Source: Qipengyuania nanhaisediminis (lineage in GTDB: Bacteria > Pseudomonadota > Alphaproteobacteria > Sphingomonadales > Sphingomonadaceae). Taken from it: a stretch of DNA of 64,000 bases. The stretch lies in contig NZ_FOWZ01000002.1 in the NCBI RefSeq assembly GCF_900115585.1, positions 186,001 through 250,000 on the forward strand, in the 5' to 3' direction. Below are positions 14,489 through 28,324 of the stretch, piece after piece. The notes under the pieces are model-generated. The model saw only the letters and a program-made list of their open reading frames with translations. It was not told where the DNA came from and ran no database searches. Made by a program: the position numbers and the translations under genes. How positions within the stretch are numbered: the stretch's first letter is position 1; each line of letters begins with the position of its first letter.

Positions 14489-14899
14489 TCATGAACCATC
14501 CGCCCGATTGTACATCGAGGACATGTCATGGTCTGGCATGGACTGTATATTGTGGCCCGCATGCGGATCGGGTGTGTCGCTAGGCTTCGCATTCATCGGC
14601 GGGGGAGTGGCCGCAGGTGACGGCGCTACTACCGGAGTGCTCGCCGGTCGGTCTGGTTGCCTACCGGCAGTCGCAGCTTCACCCGACCGGTTCGTGTTGG
14701 CCTCTCCAGCGGGAGAGGCAGCGTTGTCTCTTTCGCCTTCACCAGCACCTGTGCTCTCGGTCGGCGGGGCCGTATACAGTGGCAAGGCTTCAGCTTCTGA
14801 TGAAGTGTCCTGCGTCTGATGACATGCAGCGAGCCCTAGCCCCAGTGCCGCCGCAGCAAGGGGGGCAACAAACGCGTTCCGATTCGATCTACGCATCAT
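14489..14899 (-). CDS. Small lipoprotein with His/Met-rich C-terminus
   Basis: The start at 14899 (MMRRSNRNAF) has an AAGGA Shine-Dalgarno site 5 nt upstream. The signal ends in the lipobox LAAC (about residues 19-22), so it is a predicted lipoprotein of 136 aa. A low-complexity Ala/Pro/Thr spacer is followed by a C-terminal DPHAGHNIQSMPDHDMSSM, a His/Met pattern typical of periplasmic copper or silver binding segments. It lies 8 bp after the DUF2231 gene and is probably co-transcribed with it. No catalytic domain is visible. A copper-scavenging role is inferred from composition and neighbours. Confidence 0.68.
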   Translation of the reverse strand: MMRRSNRNAFVAPLAAAALGLGLAACHQTQDTSSEAEALPLYTAPPTESTGAGEGERDNAASPAGEANTNRSGEAATAGRQPDRPASTPVVAPSPAATPPPMNAKPSDTPDPHAGHNIQSMPDHDMSSMYNRADGS

Positions 14900-14907
14900 T
14901 CTATCCT

Positions 14908-15537
14908 TCAAAGCCAGGAGATACCAAGATGATTGGCACCGTGCGCAAGCTCGCCGCCCAGAAACCCCTGCACCAGCACGAGAGCGGCCATGGAAAAGAT
15001 TGCGGCGCGAAGCAGGGTCCGGCTCGCGGAAGCACGGCTCGCAAGATAGGCCATCGCCAGACCGAGGACGGCGATCAGCATTCCGTTCCAGCGATGAACC
15101 TGCATCGCAGTATCTCCGCCGAACCAGAGACCGGTATGGATCCAACCGAATAGGGCCGCCACGACCGCCCCGGCGGCACCGCCATAAACAAGTACGCGCA
15201 CTGCCGGCTCTAGGCCTGTGCCCTTCCGTGCGATGATGAATAGCTCGGTGAGAGCTGCCATAAAGAACAAAGCGATCGGAAAGTGTACGGTGGCGGGATG
15301 CAGCGATTTGAGCACACCGACCACGCCCTTGTCGCCTTCGCCTGCATCCTGTCCATTCGCCCCGTCATGATCAGCAGCCGTATCGCCGTGCCCCTGCGCA
15401 GACTGGATATCTTCTGACGCCGCATCGGAGACGACAGCACTGGCCGCTTCACCATGTTCTTCGTCGCCATGGGCCTGGGCCGGACTTATCGAGAGCAGAC
15501 TGGCGGCCACAATAGCCATGAATTGGATTGGTTTCAT
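14908..15537 (-). CDS. DUF2231-type membrane protein with His-rich periplasmic N-terminus
   Basis: A 209-residue protein with signal peptide (MKPIQFMAIVAASLLSISPAQA), then an acidic/His linker (HGDEEHGEAAS...HGDTAADHDG), then four membrane helices starting at SLHPATVHFPIALFFMAALTELF, the DUF2231 signature. DUF2231 proteins are found near copper oxidases and cytochromes; their biochemical role is not established. The conserved HxxxVHFPI histidines and the HRWNG motif on the third helix could ligate heme or copper. It precedes the lipoprotein gene by 8 bp. A weak match to the ECF promoter lies 44 bp upstream. Confidence 0.72.
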   Translation of the reverse strand: MKPIQFMAIVAASLLSISPAQAHGDEEHGEAASAVVSDAASEDIQSAQGHGDTAADHDGANGQDAGEGDKGVVGVLKSLHPATVHFPIALFFMAALTELFIIARKGTGLEPAVRVLVYGGAAGAVVAALFGWIHTGLWFGGDTAMQVHRWNGMLIAVLGLAMAYLASRASASRTLLRAAIFSMAALVLVQGFLGGELAHGANHLGISWL

Positions 15538-15580
15538 TCTCTTTGGGCTCCGGTCTTAGCGACAGTCGTGCGACCTATTG

Positions 15581-15606
15581 TATCGGTAGTGCTCTGCGAA
15601 CCCTCA
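15581..15606 (-). promoter_or_regulatory. Weak match to the ECF promoter upstream of the DUF2231 gene
   Basis: On the minus strand this reads TGAGGG-N16-GATA, 44 bp before the ATG at 15537. The -35 hexamer and spacing match the five strong sites, but the -10 differs (GATA, not CGTA) and the TT before the -35 is absent. It is placed where a promoter is needed. Confidence 0.3.
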
Positions 15607-15665
15607 TCTCTCGCGGTAATGCAGCGAGGCGAACGACGGCGCGTTAGGGTTCAAATATAAATCAC

Positions 15666-15750
15666 GAGATGGTCGGGCCTCCTGCCTTGCACAGCGCTTT
15701 GGTGAGGGTGGCCAGCCTCAGGTACGAAGCGAAAGCCCGGCCACCATCTC
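15666..15750 (-). terminator. Long imperfect inverted repeat directly after the Met-rich gene (terminator or structured RNA)
   Basis: The outer arms are 15666-15678 (GAGATGGTCGGGC) and 15735-15750 (GCCCGGCCACCATCTC), which pair over about 13 bp. Inner arms GGTGGCC and GGCCACC offer an alternative stem. It starts at the base after the stop codon of the Met-rich protein, so it would fold at the 3' end of that mRNA. An AT-rich stretch follows on the minus strand, but there is no long T-run. Confidence 0.45.
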
Positions 15751-16140
15751 CTAATCGTCTTGCGCCATGTTCTCGTGAGCCGCCATCTGCTCCATCATGT
15801 CGTGCATCATCATCATGCGCTGGTGACAGGCCGCCATCATATCGGCATTGCCGCCCTGCATCATGCCCGCCATGTGCTCCTGCATTTTTGCACGATGTTC
15901 GGCCATCAGCCTTTGGCGTTCGGCAGGATCGCCCGCCGCGTGGGCCTGCTGCATCAGCGCGCGCATTTCTGCCATCTTTTCACGATGGGCCGCCATAGCG
16001 TCGGAATCCTGCATCATATGGCCAGCGTGTGACTGCTGCTGCGCCGCCGCTTGATCTCCGTGGTCATGCTGTTGCTGGGCCATTGCCGGGGTGGCTGCCA
16101 AGCCGGTGGCGAGCGCGAAAGCTAGAACTGTCCGTTTCAT
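15751..16140 (-). CDS. Met/His-rich periplasmic metal-binding protein, 129 aa
   Basis: Signal peptide MKRTVLAFALATGLAATPAMAQ. The mature protein contains HDHGDQ, SHAGHMMQ, HMAGMMQGGNADMMAACHQRMMMMHDMMEQM and is helical. Clustered Met, His and one Cys are characteristic of periplasmic Cu(I)/Ag(I) binding proteins. It could also be a distant Spy/CpxP-like helical chaperone, but the LTxxQ motifs are missing. It is a single-gene unit with its own strong ECF-type promoter 55 bp upstream and a large inverted repeat after the stop. A copper-storage role is inferred from composition and context. Confidence 0.75.
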   Translation of the reverse strand: MKRTVLAFALATGLAATPAMAQQQHDHGDQAAAQQQSHAGHMMQDSDAMAAHREKMAEMRALMQQAHAAGDPAERQRLMAEHRAKMQEHMAGMMQGGNADMMAACHQRMMMMHDMMEQMAAHENMAQDD

Positions 16141-16194
16141 GGTCGATTTCCTTTAGTCGGTCTTGCGGTGGATGCTGTGTGCATTCATCTTCTT

Positions 16195-16221
16195 TACGCA
16201 GCCGACATCTCTTCCCCTCAA
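16195..16221 (-). promoter_or_regulatory. Predicted ECF sigma promoter of the Met-rich periplasmic protein
   Basis: On the minus strand: TTGAGGG, 16 bp, CGTA, identical in both boxes and spacing to the sites before the sigma operon, copA, the methyltransferase and the APC permease. CGTA lies 55 bp before the ATG at 16140. Confidence 0.72.
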
Positions 16222-16363
16222 ACAATCCGCAGCAGCGGTGGGGCTGGTGGGCCGAAGCACGGCCGGTTGCAGCGGTGCTGTTTTTCGGCCACCTTTTTGA
16301 GAGAAGCTGATAACGACGAATGGGGAGTATCATGGTGCCAGCAGAGCCGTCGGAGAAGCAGTC

Positions 16364-16651
16364 GTGAGCACGGTCAATGAGGACGGCAGCTGGGATGTTC
16401 CGGAGCCCGATCATGCCGAGCTGGTGCAAATGCGCATTCGCCTCATAACTCTCGAGAACATAGTTCTCGGCCTCTTGTCCGGGGCGAGCGACGAACAGAT
16501 CGAACAGATCAGGAAACGTGCGGACATGATCGAACCGCGTCCCGATGCGAGCCGGCATCCGCTTACCGAACTGGCAGCAGGTGACATGCGGAAATTTCTC
16601 GAACGCGCTGCTCGCATGGCCAAAACCGAGAGCCGCGAAGACCGTGACTGA
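16364..16651 (+). CDS. Small hypothetical protein, 95 aa
   Basis: GTG start with a good Shine-Dalgarno GGAGAAG at 16352-16358, spacing 5. Soluble, charged: the central part has LITLENIVLGLLSGASDEQIEQIRKRADMI, predicted helical, and the end is highly charged (ARMAKTESREDRD). The family is not recognised. It is divergent from the Met-rich gene and 93 bp upstream of a membrane protein. It may be a small regulator or accessory; nothing in the sequence decides. Confidence 0.55.
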   Translation: MSTVNEDGSWDVPEPDHAELVQMRIRLITLENIVLGLLSGASDEQIEQIRKRADMIEPRPDASRHPLTELAAGDMRKFLERAARMAKTESREDRD

Positions 16652-16744
16652 TCCAGGCTTTGGGGCAGCAAAGGCGTTATGCAGGACGTGGAACTCCGGC
16701 CCGCCGCTATTTCCTTGCGCACATCATTCCGGCGTATCCGAAGC

Positions 16745-17185
16745 ATGACCAGAACCCATTGGCTGATCTTTGTTTGCGGGAGCCTGATCGCGTTCGTCTG
16801 GGAGATTTTCCAGATGCCATTCTTCGAACCGGGTGATCTCGAACCCTTCGAGCGGACCATTCGCTGCGGCATTGCAAGCCTGGGCGATGGCGTGATCCTG
16901 CTGACAGGTTATAGCCTTGCAGCATTACGTGGCGGGCACGCATGGCTCTGGCAAGCCGCCAAAATGCCCTATGCGGTCTATTTCGGCTTCGGGCTTGTCG
17001 TCGCAATCGCCGTCGAAATGATCGCCACATCGCTTCCGGCAAACAGTTTCCTGAGCTGGCGCTACAGCGAGTTGATGCCGCACGAGCCAGTGACGGGACT
17101 AGCGCTGATCCCGATCGCGATGTGGACGGTCGTGCCGGCGCTAACGATCCTTCTGGTCCGCTTTGCCCGAGCCGAACCTGATTAA
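16745..17185 (+). CDS. Hypothetical four-helix integral membrane protein, 146 aa
   Basis: Start chosen at ATG 16745 (MTRTHWLIFVCGSLIAFVWEIFQM); the longer frame adds 22 residues without membrane or signal character. Four hydrophobic stretches are visible, at about residues 5-22, 45-62, 76-96 and 113-137, with a conserved-looking WEIFQMPFF after the first helix. The protein is not recognised, but similar short membrane proteins are common next to copper genes. It is convergent with the PepSY protein, whose gene ends 13 bp downstream on the other strand. Confidence 0.6.
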   Translation: MTRTHWLIFVCGSLIAFVWEIFQMPFFEPGDLEPFERTIRCGIASLGDGVILLTGYSLAALRGGHAWLWQAAKMPYAVYFGFGLVVAIAVEMIATSLPANSFLSWRYSELMPHEPVTGLALIPIAMWTVVPALTILLVRFARAEPD

Positions 17186-17198
17186 ACTGGGAGCGGCT

Positions 17199-17933
17199 TC
17201 AGGGTGCATTCGGCACATGTTTCGCCCGCCGCCTGATCCTGGGAAACCGGTTCGCAAGCAGGACAAAGCCCGAAACCGCGATAATCGTCCCGCCGATCCC
17301 GAACAGTAGCAGCCACCAGCTGTTGATGCGGTCGCGCTGCGTCCAGTCCATGATATGCAGCCCCCAGATAAAATCGAACAGGCGCCAGGTGTCGCTGCGG
17401 GCAGCGAGCACCGAGCCACTCGATGCATCGATGTAGACGCGGGTATTGTCCTCATCGCCGTAGGTGATCTGCCACGCCGGAAACGGACCCCGGAATTCGG
17501 TCCCGACAGCGTCTTCGATGAGGCGTGTGGTCGCTATGGTGGTCGATGGCCCGGTCCAGGCACGTCGGGCGATGGCCCGTGCACTCGCGGCGGGAAGGGG
17601 CGAGAGGAGCATCCCGCTATCCGGGTCGCGGAGCGTGACGCTTCCATCGTCCCGGCGGACCTCGGTTACTGCCCTGCCGCCGACCGCGCGCGTCGCAAGG
17701 GAAACCACCCCCTCGCTGCTATCGAGCCATTGGGGCATGACAGCATCAGCGGGCAGGACCTCCGGCGCGCGCGAAACGACATGTTCGGACCGAACCTCTT
17801 CGATGTCGAGAAACGACATCAGCGCCCCGGTGATCATCCACAGGAGCACCTGGACGCCGACAAAGATCGCCAGCCATTTGTGAAGCTTGCTGCCCAGCAC
17901 ATGAAGACGCAGCTTGAAAGAGCGTAACGCCAA
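17199..17933 (-). CDS. PepSY-domain membrane protein
   Basis: A 244-residue protein with an N-terminal membrane helix (KLHKWLAIFVGVQVLLWMITGALMSF), a periplasmic PepSY domain (about 100-190, including WQITYGDEDNTRVYIDASSG, the PepSY consensus strand), and a C-terminal helix with HIMDWTQRDRINSWWLLLFGIGG. PepSY_TM proteins are often partners of iron or copper reduction or uptake systems; the His and Trp residues near the helices could ligate heme. It is the last gene of the copAB operon on the minus strand, 20 bp after the NTF2-like gene. Role in copper handling is inferred from context. Confidence 0.78.
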   Translation of the reverse strand: MALRSFKLRLHVLGSKLHKWLAIFVGVQVLLWMITGALMSFLDIEEVRSEHVVSRAPEVLPADAVMPQWLDSSEGVVSLATRAVGGRAVTEVRRDDGSVTLRDPDSGMLLSPLPAASARAIARRAWTGPSTTIATTRLIEDAVGTEFRGPFPAWQITYGDEDNTRVYIDASSGSVLAARSDTWRLFDFIWGLHIMDWTQRDRINSWWLLLFGIGGTIIAVSGFVLLANRFPRIRRRAKHVPNAP

Positions 17934-17953
17934 TCGGTGTTCCCCCGATCAAA

Positions 17954-18514
17954 TCAGTTGTTACGCGGTGCGCGTGACGATGAATGGTACAGAACGATCT
18001 TCCAGCCATCTGCATCATGAGCGAGGACCGAGGTCGCAACCCCTTCGCGGTCGATTACGCGGCCGTCGGCCAGTTCGATCCGATAGGTGTACGTTTCGCG
18101 GCCATAAGCCATATGTCCCATCCGGGTGACTGCGAGCGTCGGTTCGCCGAAGGTGAAGCTGGTTATTGCATCGAGTTCCGGTCCCAGGTGATGCTCCATG
18201 TAATGCGTGAAGCTGCCTTCCGCCTTGCCGTTTTCGTAAACGAAGGATTCCTCGGCAAACAGCGCGGCCATGGCCTCTGCATCGCGCGACGTCAGGGCAT
18301 CGCGATATGATGTCAGAACCGCTTCTGCCCCAGCGACGTCGTCGTTCATCGCAGCCATATGCTCGGCATGGTTCATGCCCTGCTCCGTATGGTCCATCGG
18401 CGTTGATACCGAATGTTCCGAATGCGCCGAATGGTCCATGGATTGTGCCAGGGCGGGAGTGCCCCCTGCAGCCAAGGCCAGGGCGACCGCGCTTAGGGAT
18501 AGTCTTGTCCTCAT
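17954..18514 (-). CDS. Secreted SnoaL/DUF4440 (NTF2-like) protein with His/Met-rich N-terminus
   Basis: Signal peptide MRTRLSLSAVALALAAGGTPALAQ, then MDHSAHSEHSVSTPMDHTEQGMNHAEHMAAMN, a His/Met-rich metal-binding segment like those in CopA and CopB. The rest (about 60-180) is an NTF2-like cone fold: YRDALTSRDAEAMAALFAEESFVYENGK and DGWKIVLYHSSSR are the typical first helix and last strands. No catalytic residues are certain. It follows copB by 16 bp in the same operon, so it is likely a periplasmic copper-related factor. A carrier or chaperone role is possible. Confidence 0.75.
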   Translation of the reverse strand: MRTRLSLSAVALALAAGGTPALAQSMDHSAHSEHSVSTPMDHTEQGMNHAEHMAAMNDDVAGAEAVLTSYRDALTSRDAEAMAALFAEESFVYENGKAEGSFTHYMEHHLGPELDAITSFTFGEPTLAVTRMGHMAYGRETYTYRIELADGRVIDREGVATSVLAHDADGWKIVLYHSSSRAPRNN

Positions 18515-18530
18515 TGTATATTTCCTTCTC

Positions 18531-19688
18531 TTAAAACCAGAATCGAATTCCCACGACGTAATTCGTCACGCTAGAGTCTTCCCCTGCGGCGCGGGCATAA
18601 TCGGCGCTGTCACCGATCCGCCATTCCTGGGATACGCCAACATAGGGCGCGAATTCGCGTGCGAACTCGTAGCGAAGACGCAGACCTGCCTCGATCCGGT
18701 CGAGGCCAGCGCCAATGCCGAGTTCGGGAATATCCTGCACCGAAAGTGCGATTTCGGCACGCGGCTGGAGGATCAGCCGCTGCGTGATGCGCTGATCAAG
18801 CTCGCCCTCAAAACGCGCCGTCACATTGCCTTTGTTCGATACGAACGCTGCAACGTCTACCTCGAACTGGTAGGGAGCAATGCCCTGTATGCCAATGACC
18901 GCATGGGTGCGCTCGGGCCCTGTCAGATCCTGGCGGACACCGGCTTGGAAATCGAAGAAGGGAGCGATCGCCCGGCTCCAGAGCGCCTGGACTTCGGCGC
19001 CCTCGACAGGCTCACCGAAGCTGCCTTCACCCTCGGACTTGAACCAGAACTTGTCGATATCACCGCCATAATAGCCCTGGATATCCCAAAGATATCCATC
19101 CGCTCCCTCGCGGGCGCGGTATTCGAGCCGGTCGCCCTGAAACCAGAAGCGCATCCCGCCGTCGGTCTCGCGGACAAGTTCGCGCCGCGCTTCGTTCATG
19201 GCTTCCTCGCCCCAGATCGCAACCGCCGCGCGCGCGGGACCGCTCCCGGCTTCGGGAGGAGGCGGCAGCAGCGGGATATCGTCGTTCGAGCCCATCTGCA
19301 TCGACGAATGGTCCATGCCCTGCATGTCCTGCGATCCCGTCTGCCCGTGGTTCATCTGGCTGTGATCCATCTGCCCATGGTCTGTCGACGAGCCGCTGGC
19401 TTCCGCCTGCCCCATGTCGCCGTGATTCATCTGCGAATGATCCATCGTCGAATGGTCCATCGCAGCTTCAGGCTGGGCAGTACGTTCGCACGCCCCCTCT
19501 GTTACCGGATGCCCCATCGCACGATGGCGCGCGGCTTCCTCCTCGCACTTTACCTTGGCGTCAGCCTGCGCCTCGGCGCTCTGCTGCGGCTCCGCCGGCG
19601 AGTGACCGGCGTGCTGGGCTGCGGCGGGCGAAGCGAGGACTGCACCTGCTGCGACGGAGGCGAAGAAGCTGAAATTGAAAGTCTTCAT
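18531..19688 (-). CDS. copB: Copper resistance protein CopB (outer-membrane barrel)
   Basis: The signal peptide ends ASPAAAQHAGH. Residues about 25-125 are a His/Met-rich region with repeated MDHSTMDHSQMNHG units, followed by the conserved CopB domain: a 12-stranded-type barrel with WDIQGYYGGDIDKFWFKSEGEG and a C-terminal ...NYVVGIRFWF aromatic end, as for outer-membrane proteins. The 385-aa length fits the family. The start codon overlaps the copA stop by four bases (ATGA). CopB is thought to sequester or export copper across the outer membrane, working with CopA. Confidence 0.93.
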   Translation of the reverse strand: MKTFNFSFFASVAAGAVLASPAAAQHAGHSPAEPQQSAEAQADAKVKCEEEAARHRAMGHPVTEGACERTAQPEAAMDHSTMDHSQMNHGDMGQAEASGSSTDHGQMDHSQMNHGQTGSQDMQGMDHSSMQMGSNDDIPLLPPPPEAGSGPARAAVAIWGEEAMNEARRELVRETDGGMRFWFQGDRLEYRAREGADGYLWDIQGYYGGDIDKFWFKSEGEGSFGEPVEGAEVQALWSRAIAPFFDFQAGVRQDLTGPERTHAVIGIQGIAPYQFEVDVAAFVSNKGNVTARFEGELDQRITQRLILQPRAEIALSVQDIPELGIGAGLDRIEAGLRLRYEFAREFAPYVGVSQEWRIGDSADYARAAGEDSSVTNYVVGIRFWF

Positions 19689-21496
19689 GCTTCGCTCCCG
19701 TCCGGATTGGCAACCGTGACAATCTGAAACATCCCGGCATGCATGTGGTAGAGAAGGTGGCAGTGGAAGGCCCAGTCGCCCGGCTCGTCCGCCGTCAGGT
19801 CGAACTGCGCGCTGCCACCCGGCTGCAGGATAACTGTGTGCTTGAGCGGTTGACGGTCGGCCGGGGCGCCATTGACCAGCTCGAAGAAGTGCCCGTGCAA
19901 GTGGATCGGGTGCGCCATCATCGTGTCGTTGATGAGCTTCACGCGCACGCGTTCGTTATAGGCGAACCGGATCGGCTCGTCGGAGACGGCGGAAAACTTC
20001 TTGCCGTCAAACGACCACATGTAGCGTTCCATGTTCCCGGTGAGATGGATTTCCATCCGCCGCGAGGGAGTCCGGCCCTCCCGATGAGGTGTCAGCGAGC
20101 GGAGCTTGCGATAGTCGAGCGTGCGGTGAGGGACATCGGCGAGGCCGATGCCGGGATCGCCCATTCGGTCGACCGGGTTCATCGAGACCATGTCTAGCCC
20201 GGGTCCGACCTTCACATCGGGAGGCAAGCGCGAGATATCACGCATCTGCATGCCTCCCGCCATTCCGGCCATGCCCGCCATATCCGAATCGCCGGACGAA
20301 CCATGGTCCATTCCCGCCATGTCACCGCCACTGCTGTGGTCCATTCCGGTCTTGCCGGCATCGCCGCCGGAGCCATGGTCCATGCCGCTCATGCCCATAT
20401 CGGCCATGGTCAGCAGCGGGGGATCGCGCAGCGGAGGTATGGCGGCGCGCGCGCCGGGTGTGCTCGCAAGTGTGGCAATACCCATGCCGGAGCGGTCCAT
20501 GGACTCTGCCACCAGCGTGTAAGCCTGTTGCTCGCCCGGCGTCACGACGACATCGTAGGTTTCGGCAACGCCGATCTGGAACTCGTCGACCTCGACCGGT
20601 TCGACATCCTTCCCGTCCGCCTGCACGACAGTCATCGGTAAGCCGGGAATACGGATATTGAAAAAGGTCATGGCTCCGGCATTGATGAAGCGCAGGCGTA
20701 CGCGCTCGCCGGGGCGGAAGAGATATTCCAGGTTGTCGAGCGGGCCGTGACCATTGAGGAGGTAAGTGTAGGCAGCGCTCGACACATCGAGGATGTCGGT
20801 CGGCATCATGCGCATCCTCGCCCACATCCGGCGGTCCCCGCCCGAAAGCGGATAATCGTCGGTCCAGGTGTTCTGGTTGTAGTTGAAGTAGCCTTCGCCC
20901 TTCTTGAGCTTGTCGAAGATCGTGTGGGGCGACATATCGCTGAATTCGCTCAGCACCACGATATATTCGCGGTCGGCCTGCACCGGATCGGGTCCGGCGG
21001 GATCGACCACGATAGCGCCGTAGTGCCCGGCCTGTTCCTGCAACCCGCTATGCGAGTGCCACCAATAAGTTCCTGCCTGCCGCACGGGAAATTCCGCTGT
21101 GAATGTCTCGCCTGGTTTGACGCCGGGAAAGCTCACGCCGGGTACACCGTCCAGTTGGAACGGCACGAGCAGACCGTGCCAGTGAATTGAGGTATCTTCC
21201 TCGAGCTGATTATGAACGTTCAACCGCACGGTCGTGCCCTCTTGCAAACGCAACAGCGGACCGGGGATCGTGCCGTTGACGGCGATGGCGCCGCCGCGCC
21301 TGTTACCCGTCGCGAAGGCAGAACGTGCGACAGTGAGGTCGATATTCAGCCCCGCTACCTCGTCCAGTCCTTTCCTAGCGTTACCCGCCAGGATGTCCGC
21401 GCCGCGCGCCCAGGCCGGCATGGCACCGGAGAGACCAAGCAGGCCCAGCCCGCTAGCACTTGTTCCAAGGAATTTTCGGCGATTGAGGGCAGGCAT
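19685..21496 (-). CDS. copA: Copper resistance protein CopA (multicopper oxidase)
   Basis: A 603-residue Tat-exported protein: NRRKFLGTSASGLGLLG is the twin-arginine signal. All copper-binding motifs are present: IHWHG (site 1), WWHSHSG (site 2), HPIHLHGHFFE, and HCHLLYHMHAGMF (T1 and trinuclear site). A Met/His-rich loop at about 345-420 (MDHGSGGDAGKTGMDHS) is the expected Cu(I) binding insert of PcoA/CopA. It oxidises Cu(I) to Cu(II) in the periplasm. It begins 48 bp after the sigma gene but has its own ECF-type promoter, whose -35 lies in the last sigma codons. The Shine-Dalgarno is AGGAGCC. Confidence 0.95.
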   Translation of the reverse strand: MPALNRRKFLGTSASGLGLLGLSGAMPAWARGADILAGNARKGLDEVAGLNIDLTVARSAFATGNRRGGAIAVNGTIPGPLLRLQEGTTVRLNVHNQLEEDTSIHWHGLLVPFQLDGVPGVSFPGVKPGETFTAEFPVRQAGTYWWHSHSGLQEQAGHYGAIVVDPAGPDPVQADREYIVVLSEFSDMSPHTIFDKLKKGEGYFNYNQNTWTDDYPLSGGDRRMWARMRMMPTDILDVSSAAYTYLLNGHGPLDNLEYLFRPGERVRLRFINAGAMTFFNIRIPGLPMTVVQADGKDVEPVEVDEFQIGVAETYDVVVTPGEQQAYTLVAESMDRSGMGIATLASTPGARAAIPPLRDPPLLTMADMGMSGMDHGSGGDAGKTGMDHSSGGDMAGMDHGSSGDSDMAGMAGMAGGMQMRDISRLPPDVKVGPGLDMVSMNPVDRMGDPGIGLADVPHRTLDYRKLRSLTPHREGRTPSRRMEIHLTGNMERYMWSFDGKKFSAVSDEPIRFAYNERVRVKLINDTMMAHPIHLHGHFFELVNGAPADRQPLKHTVILQPGGSAQFDLTADEPGDWAFHCHLLYHMHAGMFQIVTVANPDGSEA

Positions 21497-21528
21497 AGGG
21501 GGCTCCTGAAAATGCGTATACCGTCACA

Positions 21529-21555
21529 TACGCGGTCAGCTGCCCTACCCCTCAA
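21529..21555 (-). promoter_or_regulatory. Predicted ECF sigma promoter of copAB
   Basis: Minus strand TTGAGGG-N16-CGTA. CGTA (21529-21532) lies 33 bp before the copA ATG. The -35 box sits inside the last codons and stop of the sigma gene, so copAB can be transcribed separately from the sigma operon. Confidence 0.75.
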
Positions 21556-22111
21556 ACTTTTCGAACCGCTCCTTCAGCCGGTTGCGCGCACGATAGATGC
21601 GCGTCTCGACGGCTTTCTCGGTGGTGCCGAGCAGCTCGGCAGCCTCGGCCTGGCTGTACCCCTCGACAGTGACCAGCACGAGCGCCTCTTGTAGGCGCAC
21701 CGGCAAGCGCCCGATTTCGGCCTGGACCAGCCGCAGCTGTTCGCGGGCTCCGGCAACATTTTCGGGATTAGGGGCATCGTCGGCAACGGCGTCGGCTTCC
21801 CGCCCATCCGGCAAACCAAGGAAGCCAATAACTTTCCTGCGGCGGAGCTTGTCGCGGCACCGGTTGAGAACGATTGTCGTCAAATAGGGACCGATGGGCT
21901 TGCTCGGATCGAGGCGATGACGTGTCAGCCAGACCGACGCGAGACCGTCCTGAACGACATCTTCGGCCCGCGATGGTGAACCCAGCATGCGCGTGGCAAG
22001 CGCAATCAACCGGGCGATCTCGCTCTCGACGAGAGCTGTGAACGCCCGCTTGTCACCGGCTATCGCCCGCCCGATCAGAGCTTCATCCGAAGTGTCATCC
22101 ACCGCTGCCAA
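21545..22111 (-). CDS. ECF-type RNA polymerase sigma factor, CnrH-like
   Basis: A 188-residue sigma factor: region 2 (ALIGRAIAGDKRAFTALVE...ATRMLGSPSRAEDVVQDGLASVWLTRH, about 10-65) and region 4 (LPVRLQEALVLVTVEGYSQAEAAELLGTTEKAVETRIYRARNRLKE, about 128-180) are intact. The order anti-sigma, periplasmic sensor, sigma equals cnrYXH of Cupriavidus. The start shown is TTG; no strong Shine-Dalgarno is seen, so translation is probably coupled to the upstream gene, and a GTG nine bases further is an alternative. Five TTGAGGG-N16-CGTA sites nearby, one of them before its own operon, are its likely targets. Confidence 0.88.
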   Translation of the reverse strand: MAAVDDTSDEALIGRAIAGDKRAFTALVESEIARLIALATRMLGSPSRAEDVVQDGLASVWLTRHRLDPSKPIGPYLTTIVLNRCRDKLRRRKVIGFLGLPDGREADAVADDAPNPENVAGAREQLRLVQAEIGRLPVRLQEALVLVTVEGYSQAEAAELLGTTEKAVETRIYRARNRLKERFEKFEG

Positions 22112-22117
22112 GGCTGG

Positions 22118-22552
22118 TCAGTCACGCGGATCGCGCGTGAGGGCCGCGGACACTTTCCGGTCGAACTGGAGCTGCTGATCGGAATCGAGAATTTCCCGCA
22201 TGTCGAAGACGTGGCGCACGGTCGCTTTTTGCAAATCGCCCATGCGCGCATGCACCTCGTCGATCGCGGCACTGACTTCGGGCCCGTATTCGTGCTCGGT
22301 TTCCATTGCCTGGGCGAGCTGGGCGTTGGCTGCGCGCGCAGAGGCTTCGAGCCTTGCCTGTTCTACCGCGAAACGCGCTTCGAGCGCATCGAGCCGCTGC
22401 TCCTGGTCAGCCGTGAGCGACAGCTCATCGTGCACGAACTGGTGCAGGCCGCCCTCGGCATCGTTGTTGGCCCAGCGATCGGCGGCAAGCGCTCCTAGGC
22501 ATCCGGCGAGCGCCGCCAGCAGGACCGCAAGGACAAGGTGAAACTTCTTCAA
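22118..22552 (-). CDS. CnrX-like periplasmic metal sensor
   Basis: A 144-residue protein, membrane-anchored by residues 5-24, with a helical hairpin periplasmic domain (DELSLTADQEQRLDALEARF...). The five Ni/Co ligands of CnrX (His42, His46, Glu63, His119, Met123) have exact counterparts at the same spacing: His37, His41, Glu58, His114 and Met118. In CnrX, metal binding changes the interaction with CnrY and releases the sigma factor CnrH. The gene lies 3 bp after the anti-sigma and 6 bp before the sigma gene. What metal is sensed here is not decided by sequence; the neighbours suggest copper. Confidence 0.85.
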   Translation of the reverse strand: MKKFHLVLAVLLAALAGCLGALAADRWANNDAEGGLHQFVHDELSLTADQEQRLDALEARFAVEQARLEASARAANAQLAQAMETEHEYGPEVSAAIDEVHARMGDLQKATVRHVFDMREILDSDQQLQFDRKVSAALTRDPRD

Positions 22553-22555
22553 CGT

Positions 22556-22852
22556 CTATGACCCCACATGAAGCAATGCAGCGGGTGACAGGGATTCTCC
22601 GCCAACGAGGCTCTCGCCAACAATTTCTGTAGGAGCGCCATATTCGGAAGGCCATCCGCTGGTCCCTGCGCCAGCTGCCAGCCCGACGACAAACAGACCG
22701 GCGAACAAGGCCATTCTGCGTCGCTGATCGGCAATTTCCCCCAGCTGCCCTGCGCGCTGCCAGACGCCGTTCATGAAGTCGGGCGGCACGTCGCCAGCCT
22801 TCTGCGAGGCCATGGTGCCGAGCATCGCATCGAGTGTCTGATTGTCACGCAT
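22556..22852 (-). CDS. CnrY-like membrane anti-sigma factor, 98 aa
   Basis: The first gene of the operon, with Shine-Dalgarno AGGAG before the ATG. Residues 1-45 are cytoplasmic and would wrap the sigma factor (MRDNQTLDAMLGTMASQKAGDVPPDF...VWQRAGQLGEIADQRRR). A single membrane helix follows at about 47-66 (MALFAGLFVVGLAAGAG), then about 30 periplasmic residues. Size, topology and position equal CnrY (95 aa) of the cnrYXH operon, though primary sequence similarity is expected to be low. It probably holds the ECF sigma inactive until the sensor binds metal. Confidence 0.75.
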   Translation of the reverse strand: MRDNQTLDAMLGTMASQKAGDVPPDFMNGVWQRAGQLGEIADQRRRMALFAGLFVVGLAAGAGTSGWPSEYGAPTEIVGESLVGGESLSPAALLHVGS

Positions 22853-22882
22853 CCCTTGCTCCTGTCGGTTGCACGGTTCCTA

Positions 22883-22909
22883 TACGCGATGCTTCGCGCA
22901 AACCCTCAA
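22883..22909 (-). promoter_or_regulatory. Predicted autoregulated ECF promoter of the anti-sigma/sensor/sigma operon
   Basis: Minus strand TTGAGGG-N16-CGTA; CGTA is 31 bp before the ATG at 22852. Its -35 box faces that of the divergent methyltransferase promoter 9 bp away, so the two form the inverted repeat CCCTCAA-N9-TTGAGGG. Confidence 0.78.
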
Positions 22910-22918
22910 GTTTCTTTT

Positions 22919-22945
22919 TTGAGGGGTGCGGGTCGGCGACGCGTA
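22919..22945 (+). promoter_or_regulatory. Predicted ECF promoter of the methyltransferase/DUF411 operon
   Basis: TTGAGGG (22919-22925), 16 bp, CGTA (22942-22945), 56 bp before the ATG at 23001. It is divergent from, and back-to-back with, the sigma-operon promoter. Confidence 0.78.
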
Positions 22946-23000
22946 AGAGGAGTAAGTCAAGCAACAGCGGCAAGTACCAGCGTCGAATAGGAGCCATGGC

Positions 23001-23686
23001 ATGAAAAGCGCGGCAGTTCCGCCAAAAGAGCGCGAGTTCACTCCGCCGCTGGGCAAAAGCTGGCTCACGCCGTTCTATGATCGCGCGATCGCAGTCTTTA
23101 CGCGCGAGAGACGGTGGCGCCGCGCAATCGTCGAAAAGGCCGCATTGCTGCCCGGCGACAAGGTCATCGATGTCGGGTGCGGCACCGGGACCTTGCTCAG
23201 GGCGCTGATGGCCAACTGCCCCGAAGCCGGCTTCATCGGCGTTGAGCCCGACCCCGCAGCGCTGGCTATCGCGCAGCGCAAGTTCGGTGCCGGAGCCGAT
23301 ATGGTCCGGTGGCACAACGGCTTTCTCGATAGTCTCGAGCTTTCCGACGGCTGGCGGCCAAACAAGATCGTCAGCAGCCTCGTCCTTCACCAGGTCCCCG
23401 TATCGCAAAAGCGCGCGATCCTCGACCAGATCGAGAACCTGCTCGCCCCCGGGGGCATGGCGCTGATTGCCGACTATATGCGGCAGGATGCTCCACTCAT
23501 GCGCGCGCTGTTCCGTTCGAGCGTTCAGCTTCTCGACGGCGTCAAGGACACCCAGCCGAGCGCCGACGGAGCCGTCGAGAAATTGCTCGCCGAGATTTTC
23601 GCGGACGCCGAATTGCTCGATCGTATCCATACCGCGACCGGAACCATTTCTCTCTGGGCGGCATCAAGAAAGGCAATGCTCAATGA
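23001..23686 (+). CDS. SAM-dependent class I methyltransferase with probable 3' frameshift
   Basis: Shine-Dalgarno AGGAG at 22989-22993. Rossmann methyltransferase: motif I VIDVGCGTGTLL (about 54-65), GVEPDPAALAIAQRKF, then LLAPGGMALIADYM. The domain ends at SLWAASRK near 23670. As read, the frame does not stop there but continues to 24098, through the whole DUF411 gene in another frame, giving an Arg-rich tail that looks non-coding. One extra base in the G-run at 23656-23658 would give ...SLWGGIKKGNAQ and a stop at 23684-23686, in an ATGA overlap with the next gene. A recent frameshift or sequencing error is likely. Substrate unknown. Confidence 0.72.
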
Positions 23687-24150
23687 ACCTCATGAAAGAT
23701 TCGAGACCGCTACGCCGTTCGCTGGCGGCCTCGCTCCTCCTCGCCATTGCAGCCTGCTCGAATGCGGCCCAGGCCGCGACCTACACCATGTTCCGCGACG
23801 CAGGGTGCGGCTGCTGTCTCAATTGGGCCGGTCACGTAGAACACGGACTCGAAGCAGAGGTCGCCTCGGTCGACACCGACGACATGGCTGCGCTCAAGAC
23901 AGCCAGGGGTGTGTCGCAGGATCTGTGGTCGTGCCACACGATGGAAGTCGATGGCTATATCATCGAAGGCCACGTGCCCGCCGATGCCATCGCGAAACTA
24001 TTACGCGAAAGCCCCGAAGGCGTGGCAGGCCTGGCTGTGCCCGGAATGCCGCTTGGCTCGCCCGGAATGGAAGCCGGGGACCGGGTGCAGCCGTATGATG
24101 TCATCGCCTTCGGCTCAGGCGGGCAGCGCGTTTTCGCATCCTACCCGTGA
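23683..24150 (+). CDS. DUF411 metal-binding protein (CopG-like)
   Basis: A 155-residue protein with signal peptide MNLMKDSRPLRRSLAASLLLAIAACSNAAQA; the AAC could also act as lipobox. The conserved DUF411 core is complete: DAGCGCCLNWAGHVE (about 39-53), SCHTMEVDGYIIEGHVPADAI and GLAVPGMPLGSPGME. DUF411/CopG proteins bind Cu(I) through the CGCC motif and are part of proteobacterial copper/silver resistance, possibly as a periplasmic redox or chaperone component. It is under the same ECF-type promoter as the methyltransferase. Confidence 0.9.
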   Translation: MNLMKDSRPLRRSLAASLLLAIAACSNAAQAATYTMFRDAGCGCCLNWAGHVEHGLEAEVASVDTDDMAALKTARGVSQDLWSCHTMEVDGYIIEGHVPADAIAKLLRESPEGVAGLAVPGMPLGSPGMEAGDRVQPYDVIAFGSGGQRVFASYP

Positions 24151-24194
24151 CCATGGACAAGCCATCTCAGCGCCAACTCTAACGGAGGACCATC

Positions 24195-24470
24195 ATGTCA
24201 GACTATTCGGTCAAAACCTCAATACTGATATGGGGCTGGACACTCAGCCTCTTCCTGCTTTTCAGCTACCTGATCTGCATCGGTTTCGGCCTGCTCGCGC
24301 CCGAACAGGCGCACATGCACGAAGCGTGGGCGCCGCTGCTTCCCGGGTTCGAATGGCTGACCATCTCGGGCTTTCTGGCAGGCGCTCTCGGCAGCTTTTT
24401 GTACGGTTGGTACATCGCGATCATTGGGGTGCCAATGCTGCGATTTTTCCGGAACCGATTCAGGACGTAG
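24195..24470 (+). CDS. Small two-helix membrane protein, DUF5676-like
   Basis: A 91-residue protein with Shine-Dalgarno GGAGG at 24183. Two membrane helices (about 12-34 and 54-77) flank a loop with HMHEAWAPLLPGFEW. The C-terminal half ALGSFLYGWYIAIIGVPMLRFF resembles DUF5676 membrane proteins, found in metal-resistance clusters. The match is by eye, so the family is tentative. It lies 44 bp after the DUF411 gene, so it is probably the third gene of that operon. Function unknown. Confidence 0.65.
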   Translation: MSDYSVKTSILIWGWTLSLFLLFSYLICIGFGLLAPEQAHMHEAWAPLLPGFEWLTISGFLAGALGSFLYGWYIAIIGVPMLRFFRNRFRT

Positions 24471-24605
24471 CAGATCGGCGGCGATGGCCGCTTGCCTTGA
24501 AACTCGCGGAGCGTTTTTCGGTCGCGCAGGCAGTCCGCTTTAGGCCGCAATTTGCTCGAGCGCCCCGAGCAAAACGCAACTCTCCGGCTTTGTCCTGAAA
24601 GTTTT

Positions 24606-24632
24606 TTGAGGGACGCGGCAAGGGCGAACGTA
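24606..24632 (+). promoter_or_regulatory. Predicted ECF promoter of the APC permease operon
   Basis: TTGAGGG (24606-24612), 16 bp, CGTA (24629-24632), 51 bp before the TTG start at 24683. The AAGTTTTTTGAGGG context also resembles the copA and methyltransferase sites. Confidence 0.75.
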
Positions 24633-24682
24633 CTGGTCGACATAATCTTTCTTTCACGGGAGACCATCGACAGGGGAAAGTC

Positions 24683-26035
24683 TTGCAAGACCATGAGCAC
24701 GAGAATCAAAGCGAAACGGCTGGCTCGATAACCCTGCTGGGCGGCGTTGCGATGGGTACCGGCGTCATGATCGGTGCCGGCATATTCGCGCTGACCGGGC
24801 AGATCGCCGAGCTCGCCGGTCCGCTCTTCCCCCTGTCTTTCATCGCCGGCGCGCTGGTAACTTCGCTGGCGGCCTACAGCTATATCAAGATGTCGAACAA
24901 ATGGCCGTCTTCGGGCGGCATCGCGATGATCTTGCAGAAGGCCTACGGACCCGGCGTCATTGCCGCGTCGGCATCGCTCCTGATGGCTCTGTCGATGGTC
25001 ATCAATGAAAGCCTCGTGGCCCGCACCTTTGCGACTTACGCGCTGCGCCCGTTTGGCCTCGAAAGCAGCGGGTGGCTCGTTTCGCTGGCAGCGCTTGCAC
25101 TCATCATCTTCGCCTATCTCGTCAATGCAGCGGGCAACAAGTCGGTAAGCGGCTTCTCGCTCATCATGTCCGCCATCAAGATCGGCGGTATCGCGCTGTT
25201 CGCAGTCGCGGCGATCTGGGCCAGCGGATTTTCATCAGGCGCATTTTCGCAGTCCGTTTCGCTGACCAATGCAGAAGCCCTGCTCGCCTCGGTTGCTTTC
25301 TCGATCCTCGCCTTCAAAGGCTTCACCACGATTACCAATAGCGGCGGCGAAATCGTTGACCCGCACAAGAATGTCGGCCGAACCATCATGATCTCGATAG
25401 CCGTCTGCATCGTGATCTATCTGCTTGTCGCAGTGGCGGTGGGTTCGAGCCTGAGCATATCCGAGATCGTCGAGGCGCGCGATTATTCGCTCGCGGCTGC
25501 GGCGCGTCCGGCGCTGGGAGAACTGGGCTTCTATTTCACCGTGGCGATCGCGATCGCCGCCACCACTTCGGGCGTGATAGCGAGCGTATTTGCCGTGTCG
25601 CGCATGCTTGCGATGCTGACCGACATGAAGATGATCCCGCACAGCCATTTCGGCATGAGCGGCGGGATTCGCAGCCACATGCTGGTCTATACGGTGGTCA
25701 TTGCCGGGACGCTTGCGGTCCTGTTCGATCTGTCAAGGATCGCCTCGCTGGGCGCCTTCTTCTACCTCGTCATGGATATGCTGGTTCACTGGGGCGTCCT
25801 GCGCCACCTGCGCAAGGAAGTCGGCGCGCGCGCAACAATACTTCTGACAGCGCTCGCGGCAGATGGCGTGGTCCTCGCAGCCTTTACCGCGGCCAAATTG
25901 CGCAGCGATCCTGCCGTTGTCGCCTACGCGGCGATCGGCATCGTCGCAGTCTTCGTGGGAGAATGGATCTACCTCTCGCGCAATTCCGAAGCGCCCGCAT
26001 CTCCTGAAGATGATGGGTCAGGAGAGAAAAGGTGA
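24683..26035 (+). CDS. APC-superfamily permease
   Basis: A 450-residue integral membrane protein with about 12 helices. TTG start with Shine-Dalgarno AGGGGAAAG just upstream. The first helix region ITLLGGVAMGTGVMIGAGIFALTGQIAEL is the APC signature (G-x-G-x-x-I-G-x-G-I-F). SSGGIAMILQKAYGP and KGFTTITNSGGEIVDPHKNVGRTI are the typical conserved loops of amino-acid permeases of the basic/amine type. Residues 4-9 are His-rich (HEHENQ). It transports an amino acid, amine or related organic cation; the substrate is unknown. It is the first gene of an ECF-controlled operon with glutaredoxin-MauE, channel and DUF305 genes. Confidence 0.85.
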   Translation: MQDHEHENQSETAGSITLLGGVAMGTGVMIGAGIFALTGQIAELAGPLFPLSFIAGALVTSLAAYSYIKMSNKWPSSGGIAMILQKAYGPGVIAASASLLMALSMVINESLVARTFATYALRPFGLESSGWLVSLAALALIIFAYLVNAAGNKSVSGFSLIMSAIKIGGIALFAVAAIWASGFSSGAFSQSVSLTNAEALLASVAFSILAFKGFTTITNSGGEIVDPHKNVGRTIMISIAVCIVIYLLVAVAVGSSLSISEIVEARDYSLAAAARPALGELGFYFTVAIAIAATTSGVIASVFAVSRMLAMLTDMKMIPHSHFGMSGGIRSHMLVYTVVIAGTLAVLFDLSRIASLGAFFYLVMDMLVHWGVLRHLRKEVGARATILLTALAADGVVLAAFTAAKLRSDPAVVAYAAIGIVAVFVGEWIYLSRNSEAPASPEDDGSGEKR

Positions 26036-26147
26036 TGGCAACTTCTTCAACCAGCTTTGCCGCTTTTACGCCGGGCTTTTTCGAAACCGTTCACCGAAAA
26101 CCGGCGTTGAGCACGAGAAACGTCAGGCAAAACAGATGGAGCGATTC

Positions 26148-26897
26148 ATGACGACCCGAACAGCGGCGGTCTACCGTATGGTCATGGAGGACCATGTCTG
26201 TCCCTATGGCATCAAGACGGTCGATCTCCTCACACGGCAAGGCTTCGAGGTCGAGGATCATCACCTGACCAGCAGGGAGGAAACCGACGCATTCAAGGAC
26301 AAGCACAACGTCGAGACCACCCCGCAGACCTTTATCGAAGACAAGCGCATTGGCGGCTATGACGATGTCCGCGAGTTCTTCGGCAAGAGCCGTTCGCAGC
26401 CAGAGGAAGGCGAGACCAGCTATCAGCCGGTCATTGCGATTTTCGCGGTCGCGCTGCTGCTCGCGCTAGGGCTGAGCTGGGCGTTTTTTGACGATCTGTT
26501 CACCGTCCGGGCCGCGGAATGGTTCGTCAGCCTGTCGATGACCCTGCTCGCCGTCCAGAAGCTTCAGGACGTGCGCAGTTTCTCGACAATGTTCCTCAAC
26601 TACGATCTGCTCGCACGGCGCTGGGTGCCCTATGGCTTCGTCTACCCGTTCGGCGAAGCCGCTGCCGGCATTCTGATGACCGCAGGCGCGCTGACCTGGC
26701 TCTCGGCCCCGCTGGCATTGTTCATTGGCACCGTCGGCACTGTCAGCGTCTTCAAGGCTGTCTACATCGACAAGCGTGAGCTCAAATGCGCTTGCGTCGG
26801 TGGGGGCAGCAATGTGCCGCTCGGCTTCGTCTCGCTGACCGAAAATCTGTTCATGATCGGAATGGGTCTGTGGATGGGCGCGAAGCTTCTCGCATGA
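26148..26897 (+). CDS. Glutaredoxin-MauE fusion membrane protein
   Basis: The start at 26148 (MTTRTAAVYRMVMEDHVCPYG) has GGAG 6 nt upstream; in-frame sequence before it belongs to the overlap with the permease gene. Residues about 5-80 form a glutaredoxin domain with CPYG in place of the usual CPYC, so only the nucleophilic cysteine remains. The C-terminal half (95-249) has four helices with a MauE/DoxX-like pattern (YPFGEAAAGILMTAG) and a conserved CACVGGGSNVPLGF pair of cysteines. MauE-type proteins help disulphide formation or electron transfer in the periplasm. It is probably a membrane thiol-redox protein; direct substrate unknown. Confidence 0.82.
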   Translation: MTTRTAAVYRMVMEDHVCPYGIKTVDLLTRQGFEVEDHHLTSREETDAFKDKHNVETTPQTFIEDKRIGGYDDVREFFGKSRSQPEEGETSYQPVIAIFAVALLLALGLSWAFFDDLFTVRAAEWFVSLSMTLLAVQKLQDVRSFSTMFLNYDLLARRWVPYGFVYPFGEAAAGILMTAGALTWLSAPLALFIGTVGTVSVFKAVYIDKRELKCACVGGGSNVPLGFVSLTENLFMIGMGLWMGAKLLA

Positions 26898-27307
26898 TCA
26901 CCGCGCTCCTTCTCGCCGTCTTTCTGTTCCTTGCAGCCGTCGCTTCCCACCTTGCCATTCTGGGTGTCGGCCACCGGCTTCTCGATCGCCGCCGCGATAC
27001 GCTGGGAAAGCTTGCAGTCTCGCTACTCGTGCTCGCGTCGCATTTCCTGGTCGCGATCCTTTTTGCCGCAGGTTTCTGGCTGGGCGCGCAATGGGGCCTG
27101 GGAGGGTTCGACAAGGCGCCTTCCATGGACTGGATGGACTACTTCTATTTCTCGCTCATCAACGTGACCACACTGGGCCTGGGCGACATTTATCCGACCG
27201 AGCACCTGAGAGTTCTCGCCGGCGTCGAGGCCCTTACCGGCTTCGCTCTCATCAGCTGCTCGGCGCAGCTATTCTGGACCATGATGCAAAAAGGAGAAAA
27301 AGCATGA
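26894..27307 (+). CDS. Two-helix potassium-channel-like protein
   Basis: A 137-residue protein that starts in ATGA overlap with the MauE gene. Two or three membrane helices flank a pore loop NVTTLGLGDIYPTEH, the K+ channel filter with GLG instead of GYG, followed by the P-x-x-x-x-R-x-x-x motif of Ion_trans_2 proteins. The GLG change may alter selectivity or abolish conduction. There is no RCK domain. Single-subunit two-helix channels act as tetramers in the inner membrane. Its position in a redox/metal operon suggests ion balance during stress, which is inference. Confidence 0.78.
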   Translation: MITALLLAVFLFLAAVASHLAILGVGHRLLDRRRDTLGKLAVSLLVLASHFLVAILFAAGFWLGAQWGLGGFDKAPSMDWMDYFYFSLINVTTLGLGDIYPTEHLRVLAGVEALTGFALISCSAQLFWTMMQKGEKA

Positions 27308-27831
27308 CCGAAAAGACCTCCCACTCGGACAAGGGAGGGGGCGGCAGCTACTGGCGATTCATGGCCATGGTGTCGACCTCGACCGTGATCATGTTCTTCC
27401 TGATGTATGCCAACACCTTTACCGTCGATGATCTTTTCTGGAGCGAAACGCGCTTCTGGATGATGTTCGTCATGGGCGCGATGATGATGGTTGTCATGCT
27501 GCTCTTCATGTGGGGCATGTACAAGGACCGGACCAAGAACTTGATCATCCTGGGCGTCGGGGCCTTTGTGTTCGCGCTCGCACTATGGCTGGTGCGCAGC
27601 CAGACCACCGTTGACGATACCGAATATATGGCAGCAATGATCCCGCACCACTCAATCGCGATCATGACCAGCGAACGCGCGAGCCTGAAAGATCCTCGCG
27701 TGCGCGAACTCGCGCAGGCCATCATTGTCGCACAGCGCCGCGAAATCGCCGAGATGAAATACCTCATAGACGATATCGAGCAGAACGGTCCTCGAACCGA
27801 AGAACGCCTGCCCGAGGAGATGCAGCCATGA
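27304..27831 (+). CDS. DUF305 membrane-associated metal-stress protein
   Basis: 175 residues, starting in ATGA overlap with the channel gene. Three hydrophobic segments (about 17-35, 50-70 and 79-98), rich in Met (MMFVMGAMMMVVMLLFMWGM), precede the DUF305 signature MIPHHSIAIMTSERAS...ELAQAIIVAQRREIAEM (about 115-158). DUF305 is a four-helix, His/Met-containing domain common near copper and silver genes. The His-His pair and Met cluster suggest copper binding at the membrane. Confidence 0.85.
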   Translation: MTEKTSHSDKGGGGSYWRFMAMVSTSTVIMFFLMYANTFTVDDLFWSETRFWMMFVMGAMMMVVMLLFMWGMYKDRTKNLIILGVGAFVFALALWLVRSQTTVDDTEYMAAMIPHHSIAIMTSERASLKDPRVRELAQAIIVAQRREIAEMKYLIDDIEQNGPRTEERLPEEMQP

Positions 27832-28316
27832 ACAAGATAGCTTTCACGGCGCTCATCGCGCTGCCGCTTGCCGCCTGCAATTCGAACACCGCTCCGGGCA
27901 ACGACCGCGAAGCCCAGCTCGACCCGCCTGCCACTGCCGCGCCGATCGAGGACGCGGCCAGTGCACTGGCAAATGTTGACCCGGGCCTCATGCTTCCCGG
28001 GACCATGAATGACGCGGACCTTGCTGCTCTGGGCGCAGGACAGGCCTGCCAGTTCCGCCTGACCGAAGTGGCCTTTCCCTCGTTTGTCTATGACGGTGAC
28101 GGGGGCGGAGCGATCAAGATCAATGGCAAATTGATCCCCGTGACCGCCGATGGCCCTGGCAGCTATGCGAACGGCGAGCTTCGGATCAAAACCCGCATGC
28201 TGGATGATGAAGGCGATGCGGGCCTGCAAATGCAGGAGATGATCGTGGCAGCACCAAGAGCCAAGGATGAGTTCGGCTTTTGGGGTTATACCACCTGTCC
28301 GGCCGACGGAGCCTGA
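27828..28316 (+). CDS. Small lipoprotein, 162 aa, ATGA-coupled to DUF305
   Basis: Lipobox LPLAAC at residues 12-17 after MNKIAFTALIA. The mature part (about 55-160) has GQACQFRLTEVAFPSFVYDGDGGGAIKINGKLIPV and MQEMIVAAPRAKDEFGFWGYTTCPADGA: two cysteines near the ends and beta-strands resembling small periplasmic DUF6692-like lipoproteins; no firm family. Last gene of the APC operon before a hairpin. Envelope location is clear; the function is not. Confidence 0.72.
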   Translation: MNKIAFTALIALPLAACNSNTAPGNDREAQLDPPATAAPIEDAASALANVDPGLMLPGTMNDADLAALGAGQACQFRLTEVAFPSFVYDGDGGGAIKINGKLIPVTADGPGSYANGELRIKTRMLDDEGDAGLQMQEMIVAAPRAKDEFGFWGYTTCPADGA

Positions 28317-28324
28317 TACTGGCA

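Follow-up and report, generated by a model that had tools for sequence, protein, structure and literature searches.

A CnrYXH-type sigma factor, sensor and promoter set likely to control copper resistance genes in Qipengyuania nanhaisediminis and other Sphingomonadales

The 64-kb stretch of the Qipengyuania nanhaisediminis genome examined here (the window; contig C2:186001-250000 of genome G000) includes an operon (coordinates 22852-21545, minus strand) encoding a 98 amino acid (aa) protein, a 144-aa protein of the Metal_resist family and a sigma factor of the extracytoplasmic function (ECF) type, and the bipartite element TTGAGGG-N16-CGTA is found five times in and around it. It is likely that the operon specifies a periplasmic metal switch related to CnrYXH, the nickel/cobalt system of Cupriavidus metallidurans plasmid pMOL28, and that in the Sphingomonadales this switch, chromosomal or plasmid-borne, governs copper resistance. 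The repeated element is very probably a real promoter, and the five gene sets that it marks are probably switched on together by the metal-sensing CnrH-type sigma factor. Sequence evidence supports the promoter class, the kinship of the sigma factor and sensor, the gene order and the content of the predicted regulon.

A first-pass annotation had described five identical promoters in the window, and exact matches to TTGAGGG-N16-CGTA were found at each of the positions and on the strands that it had listed. Promoter 1 (16195-16221, minus strand) is 5' of a Met-rich secreted protein, promoter 2 (21529-21555, minus) is 5' of copA with its -35 element overlapping the 3' end of the sigma gene, promoter 3 (22883-22909, minus) precedes the anti-sigma/sensor/sigma operon and is predicted to be autoregulatory, promoter 4 (22919-22945, plus) is divergent from promoter 3 and precedes a methyltransferase gene, and promoter 5 (24606-24632, plus) precedes an operon beginning with an APC permease gene. 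The promoters are identical only in the 11 fixed bases, as the spacers differ. All five point toward a start codon, which follows CGTA at a distance of 30-55 bases (54 for the Met-rich protein, 32 for copA, 30 for the anti-sigma, 55 for the methyltransferase and 50 for the APC permease, which has a TTG start), in agreement with the 31-56 bp reported previously. The annotation gave a chance expectation of about 0.03; shuffling the window gave 0.02, and five matches were reached in 0 of 100 shuffles. When the whole genome was scanned (2,899,438 bases, 12 contigs), only the five matches in the window were found, and the reversed pattern, used as a control, gave none. Relaxing the first base (TGAGGG-N16-CGTA) gave 7 sites in the genome vs 5 control matches. 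The two sites added were at 34538-34563 in the window (minus strand) and at C5:912176-912201, the latter being the sole TGAGGG-N16-CGTA of the genome outside the window.

The annotation had cautioned that its own search was not blind, and this concern was answered by a blind search in relatives. A match to the sigma factor was present in 131 loci, from which those with sigma identity <39%, three overlapping copies of the window, locus L033 and short ends were dropped, leaving 115 regions, or 46 after removal of those at least 75% identical. When every 6-mer/gap/4-mer word at the 3' end of the sigma gene was counted, the top word was TGAGGG-N16-CGTA, present in 37 of the 46 non-redundant loci compared with a maximum of 3 in ten composition shuffles. 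A site with no more than one core mismatch was found in 41 loci. In the alignment of these 41 sites, information content was 1.7-2.0 bits per base in the core compared with 0.1-0.9 in the spacer, where 12 of 16 positions were at 0.5 or below; as the sites were picked by their core, this reveals the freedom of the spacer rather than independent conservation of the core. The base before the TGAGGG core (the first T of TTGAGGG) is not required (T in 24 sites, C in 8, G in 5 and A in 4). Ten ECF loci used as outgroups, with sigma identity of 28-34%, had at least three mismatches in the sigma 3' region.

In divergent relatives that carry the sigma factor, the core again precedes genes of these kinds, as the annotation had anticipated for a genuine regulon. 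Counting exact cores with a 16- or 17-base gap, a site was present before copA in 39 of the 46 loci, before the anti-sigma gene in 32 and in the divergent position in 29; all three were present in 19 loci and none in one (L095). CopA was encoded directly after the sigma factor in 42 of the 46. The stop codon of the sigma gene, TGA, forms part of the copA -35 element in 24 loci (for example L082, L103 and L046), where the site extends to 23 bases past the stop, and in the window the stop codon (TAG) falls a few bases past the position of the TGA in the copA -35.

The distribution of the exact pattern was examined in 397 genomes of the family, where it occurred 449 times and the reversed control 152 times. 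A sigma match (E up to 1e-30) was found in 103 of these genomes. At least three sites were present in all 34 genomes with a sigma match of at least 280 bits, in 14 of 34 at 140-280 bits, in 9 of 35 at 107-140 bits and in 15 of 294 with no match, and at least one site was present in 26, 27 and 103 genomes of the last three groups, respectively. The reversed control reached three sites in 3 of the 294 sigma-free genomes and in no other group. At least two sites were seen in 69 of 103 genomes with the sigma factor vs 39 of 294 without it (Fisher p 3.7e-24, not corrected for relatedness). The metal-responsive ECF regulon proposed in the annotation is supported by a motif that tracks the sigma factor (34 of 34 vs 15 of 294 genomes with at least three sites), by the similar genes that follow this motif in divergent relatives, by the resemblance of the promoter to those of CnrH and, for the response to metal, by a CnrX-type sensor with its ligands kept.

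The test was also run in reverse, using 19 of the 24 genomes that have at least three sites and no sigma match of 140 bits or more; five genomes already sampled via a weaker sigma match were left out, and 4 of the 19 also have weaker matches. Among the 30 motif loci retrieved, 17 (in 14 genomes) had a sensor and a sigma homologue within ~1.5 kb, one had copA only, and 12 had neither. Outside the family, the sensor was detected at E up to 1e-15 in 3 of 385 genomes of the class, with up to 10 candidates scored per genome. The loci in these other alphaproteobacterial families (L177, L178 and L179) each carry GAGGG-N16-CGTA next to sigma and copA homologues, and in none of them is the preceding base T. 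The preceding base is C at both L177 sites, G at all three L178 sites and A or G in L179, and its constancy within two of the three loci hints that promoter and sigma factor have changed together.

The ECF sigma factor (coordinates 21545..22111, minus strand) has Pfam matches to regions 2 and 4, and its best solved relative is CnrH (4cxf; phmmer E 4.6e-26, next best 6e-13). The 144-aa sensor (22118..22552, minus) belongs to the CnrX family, matching PF13801 at 2.2e-15. All seven of its solved phmmer matches are forms of NccX or CnrX (best 1.9e-18), hhalign against CnrX gave 99.7%, and all 15 structure matches (E up to 0.001) of the predicted sensor model (pLDDT 78.6, from a 7-row alignment) were likewise NccX or CnrX. 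In an alignment of 46 sensor sequences including CnrX, from which L066 was omitted as the open reading frame (ORF) search found no sensor there, the CnrX metal ligands H42, H46, E63, H119 and M123 are kept in 46, 45, 45, 46 and 45 sequences, respectively, and correspond to H37, H41, E58, H114 and M118 in the window. The sensors also conserve H87 (43 of 45), H101 (45 of 45) and M104 (43 of 45; all in window numbering), three residues that CnrX and NccX lack. The predicted fold would place E58 early in a long helix (residues 48-85), H114 and M118 late in a second helix (91-121), H101 and M104 nearer the start of that helix, and H87 in a turn.

The first gene of the operon (22556..22852, minus) is predicted from its position and architecture to encode a small anti-sigma factor. 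Its 98-aa product has no Pfam match, but its size, its location in the position of cnrY and its one hydrophobic segment fit CnrY. Most of the predicted anti-sigmas end in an SPxxLL-like motif, of which the P and last L are invariant in 40 rows, and CnrY ends SPFGLLIG, a likeness judged by eye. This C-terminal tail could bind the sensor.

The system shares with CnrYXH the gene order anti-sigma, sensor, sigma, the CnrX-family sensor with its ligands, a CnrH-related sigma factor, and a CnrH-like promoter directly after the sigma gene and in front of resistance genes. The core AGGG...CGTA is common to both. In 30 kb of pMOL28, RAGGGG-N16-CGTA was found twice only, before cnrY (cnrYp) and before cnrC (cnrCp), with a shuffle mean of 0.04. 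The transcription starts of cnrYp and cnrCp, mapped by primer extension, are reported at 24 and 25 bases before the genes (PMC9045368), which would place them ~8 bases after CGTA when counted on the pMOL28 sequence. The segments KAVETRIYRAR in the window sigma and KAVEGRIGRAR in CnrH, which we take to be the recognition helices, are alike. A 57-row sigma tree is consistent with this kinship, grouping CnrH with the copper-linked sigmas (support 84/95), but it is midpoint-rooted and contains long branches, including that of L026, which joins CnrH. However, unlike CnrYXH, the system in the window is found in an alphaproteobacterial host and is predicted to drive copAB and accessory genes in place of the CnrCBA pump, and its sensor family differs from CnrX in the additional conserved His and Met residues.

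By analogy with CnrYXH, the small membrane anti-sigma would hold the ECF sigma factor at rest while itself being bound by the periplasmic CnrX-like sensor. Metal, most likely copper and perhaps also silver, would fill the His-His-Glu-His-Met site of the sensor in the periplasm, whereupon the anti-sigma would let go of the sigma factor. The freed sigma factor and RNA polymerase would then start transcription at the TGAGGG-N16-CGTA promoters and drive the sigma operon itself, copAB, the divergent operon, the APC operon and the gene for the Met-rich protein. The divergent operon would supply the methyltransferase and DUF411 protein in the window, and DUF2231, CopC or DUF411 as the first product in relatives. 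Copper is favoured as the signal because the predicted target genes look like copper genes, and by analogy with CnrYXH each of the five promoters in this strain is expected to depend on the sigma factor of the window.

Several observations weigh against a copper-responsive relative of CnrYXH. No homology between the anti-sigma and CnrY was detected by hhalign (probability 0.3%), and the five ligands of the sensor are those of a nickel/cobalt sensor. The stretch from AGGG to CGTA is one base longer in the cnr promoters than at the sites in the window, the RAGGGG pattern was framed after cnrYp and cnrCp had been viewed and was tested on the same 30 kb and is thus post hoc, and a matrix built from the alphaproteobacterial sites ranked cnrCp second but did not place cnrYp among the 12 best. 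The core site is missing before copA in 7 of the 46 loci, at the autoregulatory position in 14 and at the divergent position in 17, a few loci being truncated. No exact TTGAGGG-N16-CGTA was found in 8 of 68 genomes with a sigma match of at least 140 bits, seven of which have first-base variants near the sigma gene and one of which (G158, carrying L095) has no exact core. In the sigma-free genomes the motif is slightly commoner than the control (mean 0.56 vs 0.37), in part owing to weaker sigma homologues that the threshold misses.

Retention of all five CnrX ligands, together with CnrX and NccX being the closest sensors of solved structure, would also suit the same sigma regulon sensing nickel/cobalt, or more than one metal, in which the copper genes would be co-regulated bystanders. 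This is considered unlikely, as CopA follows the sigma factor in 42 of the 46 loci, CopC is among the first divergent gene products and L040 includes a copper P-type ATPase; in addition, H87, H101 and M104 are conserved here but absent from CnrX and NccX, and a copper-bound CnrX structure exists (3epv, by its title). A bipartite motif could also be an operator, for example for a dimeric activator, rather than a sigma promoter. However, TGAGGG and CGTA are asymmetric with a 16-base gap, all five copies in the window are aimed at a start codon 30-55 bases away, a similar element is present at the mapped CnrH promoters and the motif co-occurs with the sigma factor, making another regulator improbable. 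Recent duplication, or chance in a G-rich region, has the least claim of all, with a probability close to nil. Close relatives share 89-97% identity across the island, so the copies in these relatives are not independent evidence. However, the motif was recovered blindly in diverged loci, and the fixed bases stay while the spacers of relatives change. Duplicated promoters were rejected because the five spacers differ, and a chance origin was rejected on the basis of the shuffles, the genome count (5, control 0) and the blind search.

A copper-responsive relative of CnrYXH could represent a widespread and undescribed branch in which the metal has changed from nickel/cobalt to copper with the same five ligands, using the added H87, H101 and M104, and in which a fixed-promoter copper regulon extends across the Sphingomonadales and a few other alphaproteobacteria, the copA -35 often containing the sigma stop codon. 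This extended proposal is tentative and falls somewhat short of even odds. If it is true, the predicted promoter TGAGGG-N16-CGTA would find the system from DNA alone, and there would be a large natural comparison set for how one periplasmic CnrX site tells copper from nickel/cobalt. DUF411, DUF2231, the APC permease and the methyltransferase, whose functions are not known, would be tied to copper, and the compact sigma/promoter pair might serve in copper biosensors.

Other copper-linked ECF sigma factors resemble the system in part, as far as the sections of the sources consulted describe them. SigAb of Acinetobacter is induced by copper, and its anti-sigma, a small membrane protein, has been modelled with a CnrY-like mode of binding (SigAb-AabA-AabB; PMC12153292). 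However, its promoter has -35 GTCAAC, -10 CGTT and a 17-base spacer, its anti-sigma genes are downstream of the sigma gene, and its direct regulon consists of sigAb, relA and an sRNA, with copper genes affected only indirectly (PMC12153292). CorE of Myxococcus xanthus is a copper-dependent ECF sigma factor that activates a multicopper oxidase gene, but it senses copper through its own Cys-rich C-terminal domain and has no linked anti-sigma gene (PMC3107203); it is the copper ECF sigma named in a review from 2023 on how marine bacteria signal in response to copper (PMC10141476). No such extension was found in the window sigma, a protein of 188 residues in which region 4 reaches residue 179 and the remaining tail lacks Cys. 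Caulobacter SigF-NrsF is an alphaproteobacterial ECF pair with a copper-induced regulon, but its promoter is GTAACC-N16-CGAA, its targets are DUF2282, DUF692 and DoxX proteins, and a CnrX-type sensor is not mentioned in the sections consulted (PMC3511200, PMC8224329). At the level of titles and abstracts, and outside the ECF classification literature, no description of a CnrYXH-type copper system in Sphingomonadales was found; a predicted group or promoter for the window sigma may already be in print.

The predicted target genes of the window are arranged in blocks behind the promoters. The Met/His-rich secreted protein (15751..16140, minus) is encoded 3' of promoter 1 and had no Pfam match better than E 0.01. 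The block 17199..21496 (minus) begins with the copA multicopper oxidase gene (19685-21496; NCBIfam TIGR01480, 1.7e-232), followed by copB-like (18531-19688), NTF2-like (17954-18514) and PepSY-like (17199-17933) genes, the last three named solely from matching annotated gene order in L041 and L043. On the plus strand, the divergent block 23001..24467 encodes a class I methyltransferase (from 23001), a DUF411 protein (23683-24150) and a small membrane protein (24195-24467; weak DUF5676 match), all from Pfam. The APC permease (24683-26035, plus; Pfam) is followed within 24683..28316 by a glutaredoxin-MauE protein (Pfam) and by ion-channel-like, DUF305-like and DUF6692-like proteins named solely from matching order in L041. 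The methyltransferase frame is open for 365 codons in the window (23001-24098, plus) and in L006, running through the DUF411 gene, whereas in L008, L010, L012, L020 and L021 the protein stops after 228 residues and its C-terminus is not the same, pointing to an indel near 23650.

Pfam was used to assign the genes that follow divergent or additional sites in the relatives (33 of 39 candidate ORFs plus the window methyltransferase). The 34 genes included 17 for DUF2231, three each for DUF411, CopC and methyltransferases (that of the window included) and two for APC permeases. Annotated plasmids have a common sensor-sigma-copA-copB core, with DUF411, CopC, CopD, copper P-type ATPase, APC permease or glutaredoxin genes variously on the divergent side. 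The divergent operon of L040 contains the copper-translocating P-type ATPase, and the divergent neighbour in L045 differs from that in the other annotated plasmids.

A scan of contigs with the sigma factor found 34 loci, 18 of which (L006-L023) were 72-100% identical and 16 under 50%; the sigma protein is identical in five of these loci, from five genera. Compared within 8-kb flanks, aligned pieces of more than 400 bases shared 89-97% identity between the window and 11 close loci, and 71-76% with L023. Long pieces at 89-97% identity to loci of several Erythrobacteraceae genera span ~14280-30110 of the window. This level of DNA identity across genera, with identical sigma proteins, suggests that the metal-resistance island has been recently mobile and has spread horizontally. 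In L006-L023 the core is present at the copA and divergent sites in 18 of 18, at the autoregulatory site in 17 (L023 has TTAAGGG) and at promoter 5 in 16 (L011 and L017 are truncated there), and each site occurs with 2 to 6 different spacers. At the Met-rich position the core is found in 17 of 18 and the exact TTGAGGG form in 16, with five different spacers; the exceptions are L011, which is truncated, and L023, in which a variant with G as its first base precedes another ORF. L014 and L016 lack the methyltransferase stretch but still have a divergent site, with a different spacer.

The additional site at 34538-34563 (minus), with the core TGAGGG-N16-CGTA and G as its first base, is 5' of a second multicopper-oxidase-like ORF (32893-34488), with a P-type ATPase also downstream, and falls within a small upstream ORF (34494-34877). 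It may be a sixth site of the regulon or a coincidence of coding sequence, coding constraint being equally likely as the site lies inside an ORF and its spacer is almost invariant in 16 of 17 relatives.

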